Positions 6,508-18,977 of a stretch of DNA of 64,000 bases are shown piece after piece. The DNA comes from Pseudomonadota bacterium. Lineage in GTDB: Bacteria; Pseudomonadota; Alphaproteobacteria; Rhizobiales; Xanthobacteraceae. The notes under the pieces were generated by a model. The model was not told the origin of the DNA and made no database searches. It saw only the letters and a program-made list of their open reading frames with translations. The position numbers and the translations under genes were made by a program. The stretch lies in assembly GCA_018242205.1 (NCBI GenBank), contig JAFECJ010000021.1, positions 1 to 64,000 of the forward strand, written 5' to 3'. Numbering within the stretch: position 1 is the first letter of the stretch; every line of letters starts with the position of its first letter.

Positions 6508-7749
6508 TCAAAGCAAAGGTCGCGGCGCCCTGGGGGTGGCGGCGATGGCGTCGAGGCGGCCGATGACGTCCCGCAAGGTGCGGTCGGCGAGATCGCGCAA
6601 CGCCGGAGCAGCGGCTGCCTGCTTCGCGGCGTCATCGGTTGTGAAAGGGAGTGTCGGCATCTTGGCGTCGAAGCCGGTGGCGGCGCACATCGCTGCGCGC
6701 TCGACCGCGTCCGGGCTGACCCCGAAATGCGGCAGGACGCGCGTCTCGACGGCGTCCGGGAGGTCGCGGTAGTTGATCGCCAAACCCTGAGGCGAGGCGA
6801 GCGCGTCGACCGCGGCGTTGCAGATCGTGCCCAGGACGCGCGCGGTGTAGTCGAGATCAGGCTCGGTCGCGCTGGCGTCGAGGCCGTAAAGCGCGGGCGG
6901 CATTATTTGCCGCGCCATCTGCGGGCCCGGCTCGCGCGCCTGCGATACCAGCACCTCGACCGGATCGCGATAGAGAAAGACCCAAGGCACATCGGGAAAC
7001 ACGCGCGTGAATAGCGGCAGCGCCATCGCGTGCCAACTATCGAGTTTGATGAACAGGCGTTGCTCGCCACTACCGTGCCGTCGGCCATAGGCGATCGCAA
7101 AGGCGCGCAGGAGGTCTTCGTGAGACGATCGCGCGCGCGGCGGCGCCGCACGGCTCAATTTTACCGCCGCGTCGATCGGCGCGGCTTCCGAAATGACGAT
7201 GTTGTTCGAGCTTTGCGCCAGCATTTGCGACACCAGCGTCGAGCCGCAGCGCGACATGTGAAAGATCAGGCCCGTGGGCATCAGGCTTGTTCCGGCATGT
7301 CGCGGCGCGTCAGCGACGAAATCGGACAGCGCCATCCGGTACGGGATCAACTGGTTGAAGGGCCGGCTCAGCGCTTCGCGGACAGTGCCTTCAAAGAAAG
7401 GCTCTTTCGTGGGCCGCGCGCCGACAAAGCTCCAATCGACTGTCGGGCGACCGAAGAAGTTGACGTGGACCGGCAGCCAACCCGGCGGCGGCCACTGCGC
7501 TTTCATTTCGACACCGGCGGCAAAACGCGACAGGCCCAGGGGATCTCCGCGCAGGGCATCGCCGATTTGCCGAGCTGTGACGGCAAGGCCGCGCGCGCCA
7601 GCGTCTCGCGCAAGCCGGGCGGCAAAGACCCCCGGTTCAAGGATGTCCGCGAGTTGTGCAGCCCACGATGCGTCGCCCAGCACCAATTGCCTGAGCTGAG
7701 CGAGTCTTTCCTCGGCATCGTCGGACGGCAATTGGTTGAGATTTTTCAT
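6508..7749 (-). CDS. Sulfotransferase family protein
   Basis: 413-aa P-loop-like sulfotransferase that would use PAPS as donor. The 5'-phosphosulfate-binding motif is FHMSRCGSTLVSQML, with the 3'-phosphate motif FLYRDPVEVLVSQ further on. The ATG at 7749 (MKNLNQLPSDDAEERL) is chosen because the open frame upstream only runs antisense through the DUF6916 gene. The N-terminal 130 residues are not a recognised catalytic part. It is divergent from the DUF6916 gene and lies on the far side of the GNAT and tail-collar genes from the RiPP cluster, which has its own, unrelated-looking sulfotransferase at 13506. The acceptor is unknown. Confidence 0.85.
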   Translation of the reverse strand: MKNLNQLPSDDAEERLAQLRQLVLGDASWAAQLADILEPGVFAARLARDAGARGLAVTARQIGDALRGDPLGLSRFAAGVEMKAQWPPPGWLPVHVNFFGRPTVDWSFVGARPTKEPFFEGTVREALSRPFNQLIPYRMALSDFVADAPRHAGTSLMPTGLIFHMSRCGSTLVSQMLAQSSNNIVISEAAPIDAAVKLSRAAPPRARSSHEDLLRAFAIAYGRRHGSGEQRLFIKLDSWHAMALPLFTRVFPDVPWVFLYRDPVEVLVSQAREPGPQMARQIMPPALYGLDASATEPDLDYTARVLGTICNAAVDALASPQGLAINYRDLPDAVETRVLPHFGVSPDAVERAAMCAATGFDAKMPTLPFTTDDAAKQAAAAPALRDLADRTLRDVIGRLDAIAATPRAPRPLL

Positions 7750-7833
7750 AAAACTACTTATAGTAGCAATCCAATAATGGAGCCAGTTCGCTATCCCCTT
7801 CCGCTCAATGGTGCTCGTTGAGGAGAGGTTTTC

Positions 7834-8133
7834 ATGTCCCGGCCGTTGATTCTCGAAGATTTCGCCAGCCGCGTCGGCGATACGTTCGCCATCCGCGAGC
7901 AGGGGCTCGAAGCCTTTCCCTTGACGCTGACAGAAGCCAAGCCGTTGCGCGCGACCTGGCCAGGGGCCGCCGCACGGCCGCCGTTCTCCCTGATCTTCGT
8001 CGGCAGCAATCCATGCATTCTGCCGCAGCGTCTCTACAAGTTCGATCTCGACGGCATCGGCCTGGTCGACATCTTCCTGGTGCCGGTGGGCAAGGACACC
8101 AAGGGTGTCAGCTACCAGGCCGTCTTCAACTGA
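7834..8133 (+). CDS. DUF6916 family protein
   Basis: 99-aa soluble protein (MSRPLILEDFASRVGDTFAI... ending GVSYQAVFN) that I recognise as DUF6916, a small beta-rich family often found beside tail-collar/MdpB-type genes. GAGGAG precedes the ATG by about 9 nt. The last 22 nt overlap the convergent GNAT gene. The family has no established function. Its placement between a sulfotransferase and the collar genes suggests it belongs to that group. Confidence 0.8.
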   Translation: MSRPLILEDFASRVGDTFAIREQGLEAFPLTLTEAKPLRATWPGAAARPPFSLIFVGSNPCILPQRLYKFDLDGIGLVDIFLVPVGKDTKGVSYQAVFN

Positions 8134-8681
8134 GTCCTTCGCGGCGCCGCGCCACGCGGCAACCATTCCATTTCGATCTGCACCCCGGGTTCGCCGATCC
8201 CGGCGAAGCCGAGCCGGCGGTACAAACGCTGCGCCGGATTGTGGACGTCGACGAACAGCGCCACTCCCATCAAGCGCGCGCGAGCAACATCCTGCAACGC
8301 CTTTAGAAGCGCGGTGCCTAGGCCCCGTCCGCGGAATGTCGGCAGCAGTGCGATATCGATCAGATGTATGTGGGTGGCGCGGACATCGACATAAAGCCGG
8401 CCGATCGGCGCGCCGCGATACTCGATTACATCGAAAGCCGTGTTGGGGAAGAACTTGCGATAGTGATAACGCTGCGCGTCAAACTGCTGATCGACAAAGG
8501 CGGCCTTCTGTTCCGCCTTCCATGGCAGCAGCGCGAGTTCGCGCTCGCGCGTGGTAGCGTACAGCGCTCGCAGGAATGGTAGGTCGCCGTCGTCCTCGGG
8601 ACGCAAGCCGTATCCTTGCACCGCCAGACTATCGGGAATGGCGAAACGGTCCGGTGCTGTCTCCCGCGCGCTGTCGGCCAT
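8112..8681 (-). CDS. GNAT family N-acetyltransferase
   Basis: 189-aa acetyl-CoA-dependent acyltransferase. The acetyl-CoA-binding loop is IALLPTFRGRGLGTALLKAL (R/Q-x-x-G-x-G/A), followed by the usual NPAQRLYRRLGF segment. The ATG at 8681 overlaps the stop of the upstream collar gene (8681-8683); a GTG at 8684 is an alternative. It is the last gene of the collar operon, which suggests a modifying role for, or co-expression with, those proteins. The acceptor is unknown. Confidence 0.85.
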   Translation of the reverse strand: MADSARETAPDRFAIPDSLAVQGYGLRPEDDGDLPFLRALYATTRERELALLPWKAEQKAAFVDQQFDAQRYHYRKFFPNTAFDVIEYRGAPIGRLYVDVRATHIHLIDIALLPTFRGRGLGTALLKALQDVARARLMGVALFVDVHNPAQRLYRRLGFAGIGEPGVQIEMEWLPRGAAPRRTQLKTAW

Positions 8682-9214
8682 CACGGAGGTGTCGGATACA
8701 TGCCTTCCAGCGAGATGCAGAAATTGAGCGTCAGATAAGGCTGCATGTTCTCGTGCGGCAGCGTGCTGCCATAGGGCGAGATCGCGCGGTTCGAGAAGCC
8801 GACGTTGATGGTCGGATTGGTCTGGTACAACACGTCGCCCTTAATCTGCGACAAGTAGCTATCCGACATCGGATTGGCGGTTCGCTCCGAAGCGTTGCCG
8901 GGATCGGCGCCGTAAATTGGATGGTTGTGCTGCGGCAATTGGCTTGAGGTCAGCGTGACCGTGGTCGTTCCCATCGGTTCGCCAATGACCGTATTGAGGC
9001 CGGTATTGCTATTTCCCCAGTGCATCGGAATGCGGCCCTGCAAGTTCGGCAAATTGAAGGTCGTCGTACCGTTGCCGCCATAGGTCGTGCCGAGAATGGC
9101 GAACAGCGCGGTGTATTGCGAGATGGCCATGGTCTGGCCGTTGCACTGCGCCCAGCCATAGGGCGCGAAGTTAAATCCGAAGCAGCAGATTTCGCCGATG
9201 AACGGTTCGGACAT
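8681..9214 (-). CDS. Phage tail-collar domain protein (MdpB-like), third copy
   Basis: 177 aa. It opens MSEPFIGEICCFGFNFAPYG, then WAQCNGQTMAISQYTALFA and YGGNGTTTFNLPNLQGRIP, the tail-collar (MdpB, microcystin-dependent protein) fold seen at phage fibre bases but also in stand-alone bacterial proteins. The C-terminus has ENMQPYLTLNFCISLEG. A strong AAGGAGGG lies just upstream. It is one of three paralogs in tandem (also 9225 and 9811), with no baseplate, sheath or tube genes nearby, so a tailocin is not supported. Confidence 0.88.
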   Translation of the reverse strand: MSEPFIGEICCFGFNFAPYGWAQCNGQTMAISQYTALFAILGTTYGGNGTTTFNLPNLQGRIPMHWGNSNTGLNTVIGEPMGTTTVTLTSSQLPQHNHPIYGADPGNASERTANPMSDSYLSQIKGDVLYQTNPTINVGFSNRAISPYGSTLPHENMQPYLTLNFCISLEGMYPTPP

Positions 9215-9224
9215 TTCGCCCTCC

Positions 9225-9773
9225 TTAGCCGCGCGACGGAAACACGCCCTGCAGGGCGATGATGAAGGTGATGCACAAGGACGGCATCAGATTGGCGTGC
9301 GGCTGCGATTGTCCGGCCATGCCGCAGACGCCCGTCGCCAACGCTTTCGGCGACGGTGCCGGCTGACCCGTCACGGGATGGCAGTAGAACAGCGGCGAGC
9401 CTGACCCGGTCGCGGTGGCCGGGACGACGGTCGATCCGATCGTCGTTGCAGTCGCTGTCGCCGGCGCCGCATTGAGCATGTGCATGTGCTGCGGAATTTG
9501 CGATGTATTGAGCGTGACTTGCGGCGTGCCGCCCGGCTGGCCAATTACGTAGTTCGACAGGCCGGGCCCCTGGCCCTCGTGGATCGGGAGCCTCGATTGC
9601 AGGTCGGGCAAGGCGAAGGTCGAGACGCCGTTGCCGCCGTAGTAAGTGCCGATCAGGGAGAACAACGCCTGATTCTGGCTGATTGACATGATCTGCCCAT
9701 TGCACATCGCAAAGCCTTTCGGCGCGAAGTTACCGCCAAACATGTCGATCTGTCCGACAAAAGGTTGGCTCAT
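9225..9773 (-). CDS. Phage tail-collar domain protein (MdpB-like), second copy
   Basis: 182 aa. It starts MSQPFVGQIDMFGGNFAPKG and carries AMCNGQIMSISQNQALFSL and YYGGNGVSTFALPDLQSRLP. Its central region is an Ala/Thr-rich insert unlike the other two copies, and the C-terminus is HANLMPSLCITFIIALQG. GGAGG precedes the ATG. The conserved N- and C-terminal blocks with a variable middle suggest duplicated binding proteins that have diverged in specificity. Confidence 0.88.
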   Translation of the reverse strand: MSQPFVGQIDMFGGNFAPKGFAMCNGQIMSISQNQALFSLIGTYYGGNGVSTFALPDLQSRLPIHEGQGPGLSNYVIGQPGGTPQVTLNTSQIPQHMHMLNAAPATATATTIGSTVVPATATGSGSPLFYCHPVTGQPAPSPKALATGVCGMAGQSQPHANLMPSLCITFIIALQGVFPSRG

Positions 9774-9810
9774 ATGTATCCTCCCGGGTTGATGCCTGAG
9801 TGATGGAACG

Positions 9811-10344
9811 TCAGCCGCGCGGCGGGAAGATTCCGGACGTGCAGATGCACCAGTTGAGCGTCAGGTAGGGCTGGAGGTTGTTGTGTGTGAGACCGCCGCC
9901 TGTCATGCCGACGCTGAGGACGTTGATCGGCTGCGCCGTTGCGTCCGATCCGTAGAACATGTCCGGCGTGTTGCCGCCTCGATAGGCCGTCGCGAGCGCC
10001 ACACCCCCGATGATATCGTTGCTGTTCGCGTTGCCAGAGGAGCCCATGAAGGCGTGGTTGTGCTGCGGCGTGGTCGCCGAGGTCAGAAACACGTTCTCGA
10101 GGCCGGACATTTCGCCCTGGACGAAGACCTCGCCGTTGAGTGTGCCGACATGCATCGGCACGCGGCTCTGCAAACTCGGAAGTCCGAAAGTCGTGCTGCC
10201 ATTGCCGCCGTACATGGTGCCGAGCAGCGCGAACAACGCGGCGTTCTGCTGGATTGACATGATCTGGCCGTTGCACTGCGCCCAGAATCTCGGCGCGAAA
10301 TTGAATGCCATGGGCTGAATCTGACCGATGAAAGCTTGCGACAT
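9811..10344 (-). CDS. Phage tail-collar domain protein (MdpB-like), first copy
   Basis: 177 aa, first gene of the minus-strand collar operon. It starts MSQAFIGQIQPMAFNFAPRF, with WAQCNGQIMSIQQNAALFAL and MYGGNGSTTFGLPSLQSRVP. The C-terminal block is NNLQPYLTLNWCICTSGIFP. Its start faces the RiPP precursor across a 259-nt intergenic region (10345-10603), so the collar operon and the lasso-type cluster share a divergent promoter region. Confidence 0.88.
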   Translation of the reverse strand: MSQAFIGQIQPMAFNFAPRFWAQCNGQIMSIQQNAALFALLGTMYGGNGSTTFGLPSLQSRVPMHVGTLNGEVFVQGEMSGLENVFLTSATTPQHNHAFMGSSGNANSNDIIGGVALATAYRGGNTPDMFYGSDATAQPINVLSVGMTGGGLTHNNLQPYLTLNWCICTSGIFPPRG

Positions 10345-10400
10345 GACGGGTCATCTCCCCCGAGAGGTTTGACAACCATTAACAGGCCTTCTTCCAAAAT

Positions 10401-10445
10401 ACAACCTTAACTTACATATCATCTAGTTTTGCTCTCTTAGGTTGT
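10401..10445. promoter_or_regulatory. Inverted repeat in the collar/RiPP divergent intergenic region
   Basis: Arms ACAACCT (10401-10407) and AGGTTGT (10439-10445) are perfectly complementary and separated by about 31 nt of AT-rich sequence. This stretch is unlike the GC-rich flanks and is the best candidate for the operator/promoter core of the 10345-10603 region. No confident -35/-10 pair can be named. Confidence 0.3.
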
Positions 10446-10603
10446 AAATTCAGCGCGGCGCCCCACTCGCCGTCGGACCCCGATAGCGACAAAAACGGGG
10501 TGTCGGAGGTCGCGGGCTCTTCCCCTTCAGGCGTCGTGCGGGCGCCACCGGTGGCTTGCCGCAAGCGTGTTCTCTGCTAAAATACCAGCAAAGGTAGGTG
10601 GTC

Positions 10604-10777
10604 ATGGCCGCGACTCCGGAAGGCCGCGCTCAGCAGGTGCTCGAAGAGGGCAAAGCCGCTCCGGCGCCAGACCGCAAGCCGTGGCAGACGCCGCGCTTCA
10701 TCGTGTCCGAAGTCGTCGATACGCAATTCGGCAGCAATCCTCCGACCAACGACAATCCTTATTCGCAACTGAGCTGA
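10604..10777 (+). CDS. RiPP (lasso-type) precursor peptide candidate
   Basis: 57-aa ORF starting at an ATG after AAGGTAGGTGG, 58 nt before the cyclase gene and co-directional with it. The leader holds KPWQTPRF (residues 25-32), matching the aromatic-x-x-Pro-x-hydrophobic part of the Y-x-x-P-x-L recognition motif read by PqqD-type leader-binding proteins. Gly43 could be core residue 1. Asp50 would then be ring position 8, giving a 15-residue core GSNPPTNDNPYSQLS with an 8-membered macrolactam. The C-terminal residue is Ser57, the acceptor type for lasso-associated HPr-like kinases. Odd points: the conserved Thr at -2 is absent (Gln41; Thr40 is at -3), and Gly43 is one residue nearer the motif than usual. 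The core boundary is inference. Confidence 0.7.
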   Translation: MAATPEGRAQQVLEEGKAAPAPDRKPWQTPRFIVSEVVDTQFGSNPPTNDNPYSQLS

Positions 10778-10835
10778 ACAAGCGAAGCTGCTGCCGGGCC
10801 GGCCGACACATGTGATCTAGCCGGGGGCAAGCTCT

Positions 10836-12782
10836 ATGGCCGCTTTTGCCGGCATCGTGACCTTCGATGACGCTCCTCTCGACAGCAGGATCGAGCAGGC
10901 GATCACGGCGGCGGCGTCCGGGCCCCGTCGGCAACGCGTGGCCTCGTTCAGGGCGGCGCATGGCATCGTGGCGCAACGGCTCGCCGCACCGGGCGGGCTC
11001 GACGGACCGCAAAATTGTCCGAAGGTCGGCCGCCCTTTGGAAGCGACGCAACTGTTCGCAGCCGATGTACGACTCGATAACCGCGACGAACTGATTGCCC
11101 TGCTGGGTGCGGCAAGGCCGCCGCAAGCGGACGACGCCGACCTGCTGCTGGCGACGATCGACCGTTTCTATGACGCCGGAATTGCGCGATGTCTCGGCGC
11201 TTTCGCCTTCGTGCGATGGCAACCGGACCGGCGCCGCCTTCTGCTCGGCCGCGATTGTCTGGGTCATCGCAGCCTGTTCTATCATTGCGGCGATGGTTTC
11301 GTGGCCTTCGCCTCGACGCTTGGCGGATTGCTGGCCTTGCCGCGTGTGCCCCGGCAACTCGATGAGATCGCCCTTGCCAATTTTCTTGCCGTCAATCTGA
11401 ATGCTCGCGAGCAGACCCTCTATCGCGGCATAGCGCGCGTGCCTTCGCGTTGCGTGGTCGAAATAGGAAAGCGTGGCAGGGTGCAGCGGCACTACTGGTC
11501 CCCTCGCATGGGGGGCGCCGACAACCGATCCGATACGGATTATGTCGAGGAGGCGCGTGCCCGGTTCGACGACGCGGTCCTGACCGTGAGCCGCGATTTG
11601 CCTCGTGTCGCCGTGTCATGCAGCGGCGGCTTCGACTCGAGCGCGATTGCCGCGACCTTGGCGCGGCTTGGCCACGCGCAATCGATCGACTGTTATACGG
11701 TGGTGCCACCGCCCGGCAGCAACATCGACGTCGGCGAACGCCGCTATTATGACGAGACAGACAAGGTCGAGGCGCTCGGCCGTCTTCACCCCGCGCTCAA
11801 TTTGAACCTGATGTCGCCGCCGGCGCCGCATCCCAATGAAAGCGATCCGACGCGCATTTTCGCTCGCTCGCACATGCCTTACCCCGGGCCGACGGTGCTC
11901 GGAGCTCATGGTGCTTTGTACGACGCCGTGGCGGCATCCCGCCATCCGGTCTTGCTCTCGGGCGACCTCGGCAATCTCTGTCTGTCATGGGACGGTCTCT
12001 TTTCCATACGCGCCTTGCTGCGCGAAGGTCGGTTCCGGGAACTGGTTCATGAATTATCGGCCATCGCGCGTCGTAACAGGCGTAGTCGTGCGCGAACGAT
12101 TTTCGCCGAGGCGCTTCTTCCCGGTTTGCCTTTGTGGCTCCGCCGCACCGTCCATCGGCTGCGCGGACGCGAACCCGATGCGATCGAGCGATACTCCGCG
12201 CTCAATCCTGCCTTCATTGCCGGCAACGACCTGCCTCGCCAATGGTACGAGCAGGCTTTCGAGGCATGGCCCATGCCGGAGGGATGGAACGCGGCGCGGT
12301 TTCGGGCGCGCGCGCTTTTTGACCTCAACCAGGTGGCGCGCGACCTGAAAGCTGCGAGCGTAGACGTCTTCGGCTACGAGAGACGTGATCCTTATGCCGA
12401 CCGTCGATTGATTGAATTCGCGCTCAATGTGCCGGAGCGGCTGTACCGGTGTGACGGCATCCCGCGCGCCTTTGCCCGCGCCGTCTTCGCCGATCGGTTG
12501 CCGCCGGAAATCCTGAACGAACAGCGGCGCGGAATATCCGCCGCGGCCTGGTTTCAACGCCTCGACGTTCGCCGGCGCGACATCGAGGATGAAATCGAGC
12601 GGCTCGAGACTTCGGCGACGGCCCGGCGCCTCATCGATATCAAACGCCTGAAAGAACTGGTCGCTGCCTGGCCCGCCGACGGCAACGAGGCGCAAAGCAA
12701 GCGCGGTCTCTATTTCGGCGCGTTGCAGCGCGCGCTGCATGTGGGCCACTTCATCCGCTGGGTCGAAAGCGCCAACGCGTGA
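10836..12782 (+). CDS. Asparagine synthetase-like lasso cyclase (class C protein)
   Basis: 648 aa with an N-terminal glutamine-amidotransferase-like domain (about 1-220) and a C-terminal ATP-pyrophosphatase domain. The P-loop is SCSGGFDSSAIAATL (about 261-275). It starts MAAFAGIV, so the catalytic Cys2 of true asparagine synthetases is missing. This is normal for lasso macrolactam synthetases, which adenylate an Asp/Glu side chain and do not need ammonia. It follows the precursor by 58 nt and converges with the minus-strand B2/PqqD/sulfotransferase/HPrK operon. Confidence 0.85.
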   Translation: MAAFAGIVTFDDAPLDSRIEQAITAAASGPRRQRVASFRAAHGIVAQRLAAPGGLDGPQNCPKVGRPLEATQLFAADVRLDNRDELIALLGAARPPQADDADLLLATIDRFYDAGIARCLGAFAFVRWQPDRRRLLLGRDCLGHRSLFYHCGDGFVAFASTLGGLLALPRVPRQLDEIALANFLAVNLNAREQTLYRGIARVPSRCVVEIGKRGRVQRHYWSPRMGGADNRSDTDYVEEARARFDDAVLTVSRDLPRVAVSCSGGFDSSAIAATLARLGHAQSIDCYTVVPPPGSNIDVGERRYYDETDKVEALGRLHPALNLNLMSPPAPHPNESDPTRIFARSHMPYPGPTVLGAHGALYDAVAASRHPVLLSGDLGNLCLSWDGLFSIRALLREGRFRELVHELSAIARRNRRSRARTIFAEALLPGLPLWLRRTVHRLRGREPDAIERYSALNPAFIAGNDLPRQWYEQAFEAWPMPEGWNAARFRARALFDLNQVARDLKAASVDVFGYERRDPYADRRLIEFALNVPERLYRCDGIPRAFARAVFADRLPPEILNEQRRGISAAAWFQRLDVRRRDIEDEIERLETSATARRLIDIKRLKELVAAWPADGNEAQSKRGLYFGALQRALHVGHFIRWVESANA

Positions 12783-12795
12783 GGATGTGTCTTGC

Positions 12796-13257
12796 TCAGG
12801 CGAAGCGTGCGAGCTCGGTGCAATCCGTCGCCAGAGGATAGCCGGTGACTTCGAAGCCGCCGGCGTCCAACCAGGCGTGCGCCTCGATGCCATTTGCAGC
12901 ACGGCCGGTGACGCCGAAATGCAGCACGTTGGCAATGCCGCGCCGCTGTAACATGTGCCTGGCCGCCAGCGCCTGGGGCAGGCAGGCGGCGTAGAACGGT
13001 AGATAACAGGCCGCTCGCGTCACCGCCCAGCGGATTTCGCAAACGATCGCCGCGTCACGGCTTGCTGCGGTGGTACGCGAAGATTGCGGCGGCGACAGCG
13101 TCCCGAGGCGCCGCGCCAGCCGCGGAAACGACACGAACATCAGACCGAGCCGTGCCACCACAAGGCGCAGCACGGCCTCGACGACCAGCGCGCGGCGTCG
13201 CCCGTCGACTTGCGCGAATCTACGCAGCGGGTGGCGGATCGAGCGCGACAGCGCCAT
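12796..13257 (-). CDS. Lasso peptide biosynthesis B2 protein (transglutaminase-like leader peptidase)
   Basis: 153 aa. The C-terminal half is the B2 cysteine-protease core: CLPQALAARHMLQRRGI provides the catalytic Cys, HFGVTG and AHAWLDAGG carry the catalytic His, and the Asp lies in the latter segment. The role is to cut the leader from the precursor while the B1 protein holds it. The gene overlaps the end of the pqqD-like B1 gene by 38 nt, so the two are co-translated. It ends 13 nt from the convergent cyclase stop. Confidence 0.88.
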   Translation of the reverse strand: MALSRSIRHPLRRFAQVDGRRRALVVEAVLRLVVARLGLMFVSFPRLARRLGTLSPPQSSRTTAASRDAAIVCEIRWAVTRAACYLPFYAACLPQALAARHMLQRRGIANVLHFGVTGRAANGIEAHAWLDAGGFEVTGYPLATDCTELARFA

Positions 13258-13498
13258 GGTTCATCAACTCCCGCAAAAATGCCTCGACCTCGCCCCGGCA
13301 GACCTGGGGCGCGACGTCATACTCGTCCAGCAGCAGCGTACAGACGTCGTCGAGAGATCGCGGCTGCTCGATCAACTCCCAGATCCGGGCGCCGACTTCG
13401 CTCATGCCCACATAGTGACGGTTGGTGGCGCTCATCATCACCAGTTCGTCGCCGATCTTGGCACTAAGCCACTCGCCTTGCCTGCGGACGATCGTCAT
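13220..13498 (-). CDS. PqqD family leader-recognition protein (B1/RRE)
   Basis: 92 aa, stand-alone PqqD-like RiPP recognition element. It has the typical core LVMMSATNRHYVGMSEVGAR followed by IWELIEQPRSLDDVCTLLLDEYDV and a final helix (VEAFLRELMNHGAV). These proteins bind the leader and deliver the precursor to the B2 protease and cyclase. It overlaps B2 by 38 nt and lies 7 nt after the sulfotransferase. Confidence 0.9.
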   Translation of the reverse strand: MTIVRRQGEWLSAKIGDELVMMSATNRHYVGMSEVGARIWELIEQPRSLDDVCTLLLDEYDVAPQVCRGEVEAFLRELMNHGAVALDPPPAA

Positions 13499-13505
13499 GC
13501 GTCGT

Positions 13506-14402
13506 TTATCCTGCCTCTGAAAGGTGCGTGGCGCCCGCCAGCGGATAACCGAGCCGCTGCATCATGGCGCCGTGATCGTGTTCGATGCGCGCAACCTGCG
13601 CCGCCGTGAGTTCGTCGCGCCAGGCGCCGGCCTCGCCGCGGCGGAAGAACGCCTGACGATGCGGGGCTTCGCGGAAGCCGTTGCTATGCTCCTGCGCCGC
13701 CACGCGCTCGAAGGCCGACAGCGCGATCGCGCGGTGGATCGCGGCATCGGTGGCCGGCCAACCGGCGAAGTCGAGTGCGGCGCGCAACGTCGCCGCCGGC
13801 ATGCTTCGTAGATCCTCATAGCGCACCAGGTGCATCGGCAGGTCGCGCTGGTTCAGCCAACTGGCGACGTGCTCGCTCCAGCGGGTTAGCCTCTGGCGCA
13901 GTTGCAGATATCCGCGGTCGGTGTGGCCGCACAGGCAGGCGCCGGCATTGTTCATGAACGCGATGGTTCTGTCGATGCCGTAGCGGCTGTGATGCGCGAA
14001 TGACGAGGCGATGTCGCGCGGATCGCGCACGATGACGAGCACACCGTCGGCGCCGGCGCGGCCACCGAGAATGGGCGCGCCGTCCGGTCCATACTGGTAA
14101 GCATCGTGGGCTTTGACGAAGCGCACCGGGCCTTCGGCGAGCTCAGGGACGTCGTCGTCGCCGTCGCCGCTTTCAGCCAGAGCCGCGTTCGCTCCGGGTC
14201 GCAGCGCATCGATCTCCTCGTGGGTGAGCAGGCCGGAATCGATCAGCGTCATGCGGTCGAAGGGAGCTCGTGCGCTGGCGAAGCCACCTGACAGCCTGTT
14301 GATGTCGGCACCGTCATCGCCGGCGACGGCGAGGTTGGCGAGCAGAATGCGCATCCAGGTGTTGCCCGACTTCGGATAGGAGGCGAGCCAGAAGGTGCGC
14401 AT
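13506..14402 (-). CDS. Sulfotransferase of the RiPP cluster
   Basis: 298 aa. It begins MRTFWLASYPKSGNTWMRIL, whose YPKSGNTW is the PAPS 5'-phosphosulfate-binding loop, and carries VLVIVRDPRDIASSFAHH as the 3'-phosphate motif. The ATG at 14402 overlaps the HPrK stop by one base (TGATG), which decides the start against an upstream frame reaching 14804. The gene sits inside the lasso-type operon, so a likely acceptor is the peptide product (core Tyr53, Ser54 or Ser57 of the precursor). That is inference, and a small-molecule acceptor is possible. Confidence 0.85.
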   Translation of the reverse strand: MRTFWLASYPKSGNTWMRILLANLAVAGDDGADINRLSGGFASARAPFDRMTLIDSGLLTHEEIDALRPGANAALAESGDGDDDVPELAEGPVRFVKAHDAYQYGPDGAPILGGRAGADGVLVIVRDPRDIASSFAHHSRYGIDRTIAFMNNAGACLCGHTDRGYLQLRQRLTRWSEHVASWLNQRDLPMHLVRYEDLRSMPAATLRAALDFAGWPATDAAIHRAIALSAFERVAAQEHSNGFREAPHRQAFFRRGEAGAWRDELTAAQVARIEHDHGAMMQRLGYPLAGATHLSEAG

Positions 14403-15334
14403 CACGCCGCTCTTCGGCACAGGCCGATATCGCGCCAATGCTGTTCGAGCTGTGCCAGCACAATCGGCAAGGCCTTGAAATTCAGGCTGCGCGTGAGATG
14501 AAAGATACCGGCGCCGTTGGCGATGGCGGTCGCGGCGTGGAAATAGGCGGCGTCCTGACCCATGCGGTTGATCAGCCGCGGCCGGTAGGCGTGCCGTCGC
14601 AAGGTCAGCGCCGCATCGACCACGTTGGGTGCGGTGATGCCGGGATGATGCGGCGGCCGCGCTTCGCGCAGCGCATAGATCGCGCCGAGCGGTAACGCCT
14701 GTTCGCGAACGCCGTCGGGTTCGACGTAGTATTTTTCCAGCCGCGCCCGCATACGTCCGCCACGCCGGCTGCCAAGCGCAAGTTCGTCGATCGTCTGCGA
14801 CCACAGCCGCAACCGGCGGCCATCGGGATGCACTGTCGCCGCGCCGTCGCTGCCGAGTGAAAGAGCGCAGAGGTCGTCGGTCACCAATGGCAGGCCGCGC
14901 TGAGCCAGCGCGGCGGCCAGCGTCGATTTACCGGCGCCCGATGTGCCACAGAACAGGATTGCCTTGCCGCCGACCTCCACCGCGCTGGCGTGCAACACAA
15001 TCTGTCCGCGCTGATGCAGGAGGATGCCGAAGACGGTGCCGAGAATGAAAATCGGAACATCGTCTGGATCGGCGCCGGCAGCGGCTTCGAAAGCGATGCT
15101 CCGGCCGTCGTAAAGGTAGAAGCGAGCGACACCGGGGACATGAATCAGGAAGTGCCGGGCCGCCATCTGCCAGGTTGGGCCCCGCGCGGTGGGGTTGGTT
15201 AGGGCGTCGGGGACGGGCGCGCGCCGGATCGATACATCCGCCTGCTGCGGGCCCCCAGACGCCGGGCTGGCACCCGGCAGGACCACTTCACTCGCCACGG
15301 TGAGTCCGGAAAGCGCGTATGAATACAAGCCCAT
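14402..15334 (-). CDS. HPr kinase/phosphorylase C-terminal-like protein of the RiPP cluster
   Basis: About 310 aa with an HprK-type kinase fold. The P-loop is FCGTSGAGKSTLAAALAQRG (about 129-148), followed by LVTDDLCAL with the acidic pair. Homologs in lasso clusters (paeninodin type) phosphorylate the C-terminal serine of the precursor, and the precursor here ends in Ser. The start is uncertain: ATG 15334 (MGLYSYALSGLTVASE) matches the usual family opening, with ATG 15364 and TTG 15397 as alternatives. It is the first gene of the minus-strand operon. Confidence 0.83.
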   Translation of the reverse strand: MGLYSYALSGLTVASEVVLPGASPASGGPQQADVSIRRAPVPDALTNPTARGPTWQMAARHFLIHVPGVARFYLYDGRSIAFEAAAGADPDDVPIFILGTVFGILLHQRGQIVLHASAVEVGGKAILFCGTSGAGKSTLAAALAQRGLPLVTDDLCALSLGSDGAATVHPDGRRLRLWSQTIDELALGSRRGGRMRARLEKYYVEPDGVREQALPLGAIYALREARPPHHPGITAPNVVDAALTLRRHAYRPRLINRMGQDAAYFHAATAIANGAGIFHLTRSLNFKALPIVLAQLEQHWRDIGLCRRAA

Positions 15335-17687: not shown

Positions 17688-18977
17688 ATGGCGCAACTGA
17701 CCGATGACTGTTTTGCATTCTCCGGAACACTGCTGACTCTGCCCGAGATGGAGCGCCTGATCGCGACCCGCGTTGCGCCGGTGTCCGAAACCGAGCGCGT
17801 GGCGCTGCGCGATGCCCGAGGTCGTGTTATCGCCGACGACATCAAGGCGCCGCTTGACCTGCCGCCGTTCGATAATTCGGCGGTCGACGGTTATGCGGTG
17901 CGCCATGCCGATCTCGATCCGGGTGGCGACACGACACTCACCATCGGCGGCCGGCTGACCGCAGGCGCCCGGACCGATCTTGCGCTAGCGCCGCAACAGG
18001 CGATCCGCATTTTCACCGGCGCGGCGATGCCGGCCGGCGCCGACACCGTTTACATGCAGGAAGACGTCGTTGTCGCGAGCGACAAGGTAACGGTGCCGAA
18101 GGGCCTGGCGCTTGGCGCCAATCGCCGGCTCGCCGGCGAAGACGTATCGGCCGGCCACGTCGTGCTGTCCGCCGGCACCGTGCTCGAAGCGCGGCATATC
18201 GCGCTGGCAGCGGCGCTCGGCATCACCGATGTCGAGGTCCGGCGGCGGCTGAAGGTGGCGATCTTCTCGACCGGTGACGAAGTCGTCGAGCCGGGCACGC
18301 AACGCGTCGGCGCCGCGATCTTCGATTCCAACCGCTATCTGTTGTCGGCGCTGCTCGAGCAGCTCGGCGCCGTCGTTACCGATCTCGGCATTCTCGCCGA
18401 CGATCCGTTCGAACTGGCGCGGGCACTGGCGAAAGCGGCCGCCTGGCATGACCTCGTCATCACGTCGGGCGGCGTGTCGATGGGCGAAGCCGATCACGTC
18501 CGGGGCGCGGTGGAAAAAATCGGCAAGCTGGTGTTCTGGCGCGTCGCCATCAAGCCGGGCCGCCCGGTCGCGATGGGCGTGATCCGCGCGGCACCGCGCA
18601 AGGACTACGCCGCGCATGCCGGCGCCGCCTTCTGCGGTTTGCCAGGCAATCCGGTGGCGGTATTTGTCACGTTCGTGCGCGTGGTGAAGCCGTTGCTGCT
18701 GCGCCTGTCCGGCGCGCGACCGCAAGAGTTGATGGCGCTGCCGGTGCGCGCCGCCTTCGCCTATGAGAAGAAGAAAGGCCGCCGCGAATATGTGCGCGCC
18801 TCGTTGCGTCGTGGCTCCGACGGCGAGGTCGAGGCGGTCAAACATCCGCAGGACGGCACCGGCATTCTGACGTCGTTGACGGAAACCGACGGGTTGCTCG
18901 AATTTCCCGAGGACGTCACCACGATCCAGCCCGGCGACCGGGCGGGCTTTCTCTCTTTCGCGGCGCTGATGGGTTAG
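17688..18977 (+). CDS. moeA: Molybdopterin molybdenumtransferase MoeA
   Basis: 429 aa; inserts molybdate into adenylylated molybdopterin. Motifs: DLPPFDNSAVDGYAVRHAD, FTGAAMPAGADTVYMQED, FSTGDEVVEPGTQ, TSGGVSMGEADHVRGAVEK and FCGLPGNPVAVFVTF. It begins 6 nt after mobB and its end overlaps the convergent mobA stop by 4 nt. A 171-residue-plus antisense open frame covers it but is a GC-rich shadow. Confidence 0.95.
   Translation: MAQLTDDCFAFSGTLLTLPEMERLIATRVAPVSETERVALRDARGRVIADDIKAPLDLPPFDNSAVDGYAVRHADLDPGGDTTLTIGGRLTAGARTDLALAPQQAIRIFTGAAMPAGADTVYMQEDVVVASDKVTVPKGLALGANRRLAGEDVSAGHVVLSAGTVLEARHIALAAALGITDVEVRRRLKVAIFSTGDEVVEPGTQRVGAAIFDSNRYLLSALLEQLGAVVTDLGILADDPFELARALAKAAAWHDLVITSGGVSMGEADHVRGAVEKIGKLVFWRVAIKPGRPVAMGVIRAAPRKDYAAHAGAAFCGLPGNPVAVFVTFVRVVKPLLLRLSGARPQELMALPVRAAFAYEKKKGRREYVRASLRRGSDGEVEAVKHPQDGTGILTSLTETDGLLEFPEDVTTIQPGDRAGFLSFAALMG

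Follow-up and report, generated by a model that had tools for sequence, protein, structure and literature searches.

A lasso peptide gene cluster with predicted kinase and sulfotransferase tailoring enzymes, probably coupled to a phage tail collar module

What is made by a lasso peptide gene cluster that carries both a predicted peptide kinase and a sulfotransferase, and why do genes for phage tail collar proteins lie directly beside it? These questions are raised by a 64,000-nucleotide stretch of DNA (hereafter the window) from an alphaproteobacterium of the family Xanthobacteraceae, whose nearest named relative in our scan is the Hyphomicrobiales MAG palsa_894. Our favored reading, to which we assign a probability of roughly 0.72, is that the locus is a kinase- and sulfotransferase-bearing lasso cluster coupled to the collar module.

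The lasso peptide genes

The cluster comprises two convergent units. On the forward strand, a 57 aa ORF encoding the candidate precursor A (10604-10777) is followed by the gene for C, an asparagine-synthetase-like predicted lasso cyclase (10836-12782; PF00733, 75 bits; GATase_7, 41 bits). Converging on them from the reverse strand (15334-12796) are the genes for K, an HPr-kinase-like predicted peptide serine kinase (14402-15334), ST, a predicted PAPS-dependent sulfotransferase (13506-14402), B1, a PqqD-type leader-binding protein or RRE (13220-13498), and B2, a transglutaminase-like leader peptidase (12796-13257); the two units meet where C ends at 12782 and B2 at 12796. Given that K and ST share one base and that B1 and B2 overlap by 38 bases, K-ST-B1-B2 form an operon. 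A first-pass annotation had listed all these parts at these positions in two convergent units, as the ORFs and profile matches confirm, but it overlooked an adjacent conserved block at 6508-10344. Its observation that the lasso cluster contains no ABC exporter holds, such an exporter being a usual but not universal trait of lasso clusters. The source genome encodes a single lasso-type B2.

B2 matches the NCBIfam model lasso_biosyn_B2 (NF033537) with 84 bits against a cut-off of 33 and PF13471 with 72 bits, and its Cys92 and His127 are invariant in the alignment. B1 scores 67 bits against PqqD PF05402 (cut-off 23) and 65 bits against the lasso PqqD model NF033536, which is below the cut-off of 80. 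Variation in this protein is seen among related loci: L034 has a second, divergent PqqD-type B1 beside C (9405-9671 and 10180-10458), and in L033 a divergent version alone was found (7024-7323). C begins with MAAFAG and lacks Cys2. In a phylogenetic tree it falls in a 37-member clade of cyclases from lasso loci, including the Firmicutes paeninodin-type ones, with support of 100/100, and the asparagine-synthetase-like proteins of related genomes sit outside this clade; among solved structures it is closest to the amide-forming beta-lactam synthetase. Tree placement and the absent Cys2 together rule out that C is a true asparagine synthetase.

The precursor gene is preceded by a GGTAGG-like ribosome site, with an alternative start at GTG 10598. 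The leader is predicted to end in ...KPWQTPRFIVSEVVDTQ and to be followed by the core FGSNPPTNDNPYSQLS, which would give an F1-D9 ring; GSNPPTNDNPYSQLS, with G1-D8, is an alternative core. A conforms to the lasso precursor pattern in its leader motif, the Thr at -2 and the Asp at core position 9, and its C-terminus (...SQLS) carries the terminal Ser found in paeninodin-type clusters. The homolog in L032, a congener and the nearest relative, displays a dN/dS of ~0.3 and a nearly unchanged core. Less similar precursors were recognized in many homologous loci by their shared architecture, namely a W/YxxPxφ leader motif, usually a Thr and at times a Ser or Asn at -2 of the predicted cut, an Asp or Glu at core 7-9, then a short tail with Ser as the last residue. 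This terminal Ser is present in 25 of the 30 pattern matches that were not chosen by their last residue, some of them from closely related loci, against 21/200 in an order-2 Markov control (p ~3e-20); the precursors of L045 and L071, for which the search pattern demanded a final Ser, were left out of this count. The exceptions include the precursors of L039 and L105, which end in Val and Gly respectively. Certain clusters encode two to three tandem precursor candidates, all Ser-terminated (L091, 11279-11959; L089, 12963-13791).

By these sequence criteria the gene set for a lasso peptide is genuine. The lasso assignment of the first-pass annotation, which was to be doubted if the precursor lacked conservation in homologous loci or if C grouped with true asparagine synthetases, is well supported, because the precursor is conserved and C lies with the lasso cyclases. 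That the product is instead some other macrolactam or an unthreaded cyclic peptide is most improbable: threading is unreadable from sequence, and the first core residue is unusually diverse and mostly not Gly, but C clusters with the Firmicutes paeninodin-type cyclases and most precursors obey the ring-size and T(-2) rules.

The kinase and the sulfotransferase

K is, by profile and alignment, a divergent relative of the Hpr_kinase_C family, scoring 31.7 bits, just below the cut-off of 33.3. In the alignment H115, G130, G133, K136, S137 and D153-D154 are invariant and G135 is present in 90% of the sequences, which matches the H-G-G-G-K-S-DD motif of lasso kinases (PMC10368454). Together with the terminal Ser of the precursors, these motifs support well the earlier proposal that K is a C-terminal-Ser kinase. 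An assignment to the HPr-rel-A system kinases (TIGR04352) was rejected at 48.5 bits against a curated cut-off of 200, and a scan of viral contigs found no relatives of K.

Among the closest known systems are the paeninodin-type kinase clusters of Paenibacillus and Bacillus (PadeK/ThcoK; PMC8498205; four loci examined here, L046, L047, L048 and L051), which resemble the present one in the gene set A-C-K-B1-B2 with an HPr-kinase-like K, in the C-terminal Ser and in the split B1/B2. They differ in having their own ABC exporter and often a nucleotidyltransferase, and, unlike in the window, ST and collar genes are absent from all four of these loci. HPrK-like kinases acting on the linear precursor, as we propose here, are known from Sphingobium yanoikuyae (SyanK) and Bradymonas (BsfK); the former targets the C-terminal Ser and the latter Ser3, aided by B1 (PMC8498205, PMC10368454). 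The Bradymonas cluster differs from that in the window in its ABC transporter and nucleotidyltransferase, in having no described sulfotransferase and in the residue at -2, which is Ile rather than Thr.

ST scores 79 bits against PF00685 (cut-off 22) and retains the motifs PKSGNTW, RDPRD..S and FFRRG, corresponding to the 5'-PSB, 3'-PB and RxxG cofactor motifs of the SULT type. Its predicted structure (mean pLDDT 70) has a SULT fold with SULT1A, Teg12 and StaL as best matches; the last two, both glycopeptide sulfotransferases, are also among its relatives in sequence. Of the 47 clusters we collected that have both K and C, 33 encode ST and 14 do not; 22 carry collar genes, 19 have an ABC exporter and 11 possess a pseudomycoidin-type nucleotidyltransferase. 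Hence, K together with ST is a common arrangement; the pair is found in many families, with ST beside K in most of the clusters that have it and the two genes translationally coupled in most loci. This overturns the earlier remark that the combination was not known as described, as does the mention, in PMC8498205, of a sulfotransferase gene linked to lasso-kinase genes in Firmicutes lasso clusters (citing Zhu et al. 2016, JBC); there the gene is given no known function, and a collar module does not come up. The pair is therefore already known and not unique to this locus. The literature searched yielded no sulfated lasso peptide.

Other tailoring combinations exist, as in the collar-type lasso cluster of Azospirillum sp. 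TSH100 (L105), where genes for an aspartyl/asparaginyl beta-hydroxylase and a 2OG-Fe(II) oxygenase (7964-9001 and 18039-18848) are present and ST was not found within the stretch examined.

That K and ST both tailor one peptide is plausible from these gene neighborhoods. Alternatively, the lasso peptide could be phosphorylated with ST acting elsewhere, i.e. on another small molecule, a sugar or the collar proteins. Consistent with this, no second hydroxyl at a fixed position besides the C-terminal Ser is conserved among the compared precursors (in that of L072 the terminal Ser is the sole S/T/Y among the last 12 residues), K clusters devoid of ST exist, and another sulfotransferase, ST2, accompanies the collar block. 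Nevertheless, we consider it unlikely given that ST adjoins K in most clusters, including the collar-free L069, L073, L075, L076, L089, L090 and L101.

The adjacent collar module

The overlooked block at 6508-10344 lies directly left of A. It contains three tandem reverse-strand genes for proteins with the phage tail collar domain PF07484, namely collar proteins 3 (9811-10344; 86 bits), 2 (9225-9773) and 1 (8681-9214), a GNAT acetyltransferase gene on the same strand overlapping the stop codon of collar 1 (8112-8684; PF00583, 57 bits), a forward-strand gene for a DUF6916 protein (7834-8133; PF21880, 91 bits) and that for ST2, a second sulfotransferase-family protein with an uncertain start (6508-7761, reverse strand; PF13469, 31 bits), which is kept beside the block in L032-L034, L036, L037, L042, L064 and L084. 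Structure prediction for the collars gave a poor model with a mean pLDDT of 53. A prophage origin was rejected: the phage matches listed are below 40% identity and occupy one place per record, and no further tail genes were seen near the collar genes. We found no description of lasso peptides joined with tail-collar proteins, and no naming of DUF6916, in the literature searched, the coverage of which was incomplete. This association is, we think, unexpected and the more surprising part of the locus.

Of the 43 genomes compared within the genus, nine contain the collar triplet, truncated at the end of a contig in one case, and exactly these nine have a kinase-type lasso B2. One more genome encodes a lasso B2 of the kinase-less kind but lacks the triplet. 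Within a genus, such co-occurrence could be explained by physical linkage alone. Outside the genus, a count made by eye placed collar genes no more than 10 kb from K in about 15 of about 50 loci, where fewer than one would be expected. Lasso-linked collar loci (L032-L034, L036, L037, L042, L045, L064-L068, L070-L072, L084-L088, L105) encode one to three tandem collar proteins, usually with the GNAT and often with DUF6916. The link extends to another phylum, on a Verrucomicrobiota contig (L045), and to plasmid p1 (NZ_CP039640.1) of the cultured Azospirillum sp. TSH100 noted above. In the raw counts 17 of the 22 collar clusters lack an ABC exporter. This inverse link with the exporter is suggestive as it stands but not significant after tree-based pairing, and a correlation of collars with ST in the K+C clusters vanishes after phylogenetic pairing.

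Collar triplets lacking K occur in many genomes, indicating that the module is separable from the lasso genes. It is therefore conceivable that the collar-GNAT-DUF6916 block is unrelated and merely shares a common chromosomal integration hot spot with them. In support of this, stand-alone triplets of the MdpB/tail-fibre-like type (L078, L079, L081, L083) encode the same three ~180 aa collar proteins with GNAT/DUF6916 but lie away from lasso genes, and within the window's genus the block is always flanked by the same genes. We nonetheless hold this to be somewhat unlikely: in other families the order and orientation of genes between the two modules vary, but the modules are still no more than a few kb apart (L065, L068, L070, L071, L072, L087, L088), collar status switches about ten times along the kinase tree, and in L045 a lasso precursor candidate, picked by a pattern demanding a final Ser, directly follows the third collar gene. 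A lasso cluster coupled to the collar module remains our preferred reading.

Two further configurations were observed. Three genomes of one genus (G099, G228, G326) carry up to seven lasso-type kinases and 9-11 collar genes each, mostly dispersed. In L080 a precursor, B1, GNAT and the collar triplet are found with no K nearby, an arrangement that suggests action in trans.

Evolution and the predicted product

Between congeners K, ST, B1, B2 and the collars share ~50-65% identity or better. C is less conserved, with only 28-36% identity in some of them, and the C proteins of the genus fall in three clades of the cyclase tree. Given this divergence of C against the similarity of the rest, A and C seem to be replaceable together, as a cassette, while the remaining genes form a stable backbone. 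Such a pattern would arise where C has to match the core but B1, B2 and K recognize the leader and the C-terminus, and where the collars are independent of the core sequence. Relative to the window, C and the precursor appear to have been swapped in L036, L037, L042 and L043, with K-ST-B1-B2 and the collars being orthologous. A congener (L041, from G025) has a kinase-less lasso-like cluster with an unusually long candidate precursor; the B2 proteins of the genus display a Gly-Tyr-Pro ~13 residues past the invariant His, where, by eye, that of L041 has an Asp.

Drawing on the gene set, family membership, motifs, precursor conservation and recurrent co-clustering, we infer the following scheme for the enzymes, the site of sulfation and the collars. 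B1 would bind the leader at WQTPRF, and K would act on the linear precursor, phosphorylating its C-terminal Ser. ST would move sulfate from PAPS onto the same peptide, either to another Ser/Thr/Tyr or to the phosphorylated C-terminus. B2 is predicted to cut two residues past the conserved Thr (...VDTQ|F) and C to form the ring by joining residue 1 to Asp9. The product would be a 16-residue lasso peptide (predicted monoisotopic mass 1718.754 Da) that is most likely phosphorylated (+79.966) and probably sulfated (+79.957), with a collar-protein partner. With the alternative core starting at G1, the predicted mass would be 1571.685 Da.

The three collar proteins most likely form a heterotrimer resembling a short tail fibre. 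Together with the GNAT and DUF6916 proteins they may be a functional partner of the peptide. Because the usual ABC exporter is missing from most collar clusters, our guess is that they serve in release or display, by binding to the modified peptide or to its target. A more specific version, in which the phosphate and sulfate at or near the lasso C-terminus let the collar heterotrimer bind, carry or display the peptide and so replace an ABC exporter, is quite unlikely and offered as speculation; if true, it would mean that receptor-binding proteins of phage tails have been recruited as partners of a RiPP.

The sulfotransferases of lasso clusters have so far been uncharacterized in the literature searched, and with the K-ST pair recurring in many families a single expression experiment would inform the whole class. 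The link to a RiPP gives the widespread collar triplet-GNAT-DUF6916 module, for which we found no described function, a testable role, and it bears on how lasso peptides exit from cells in exporter-less clusters.
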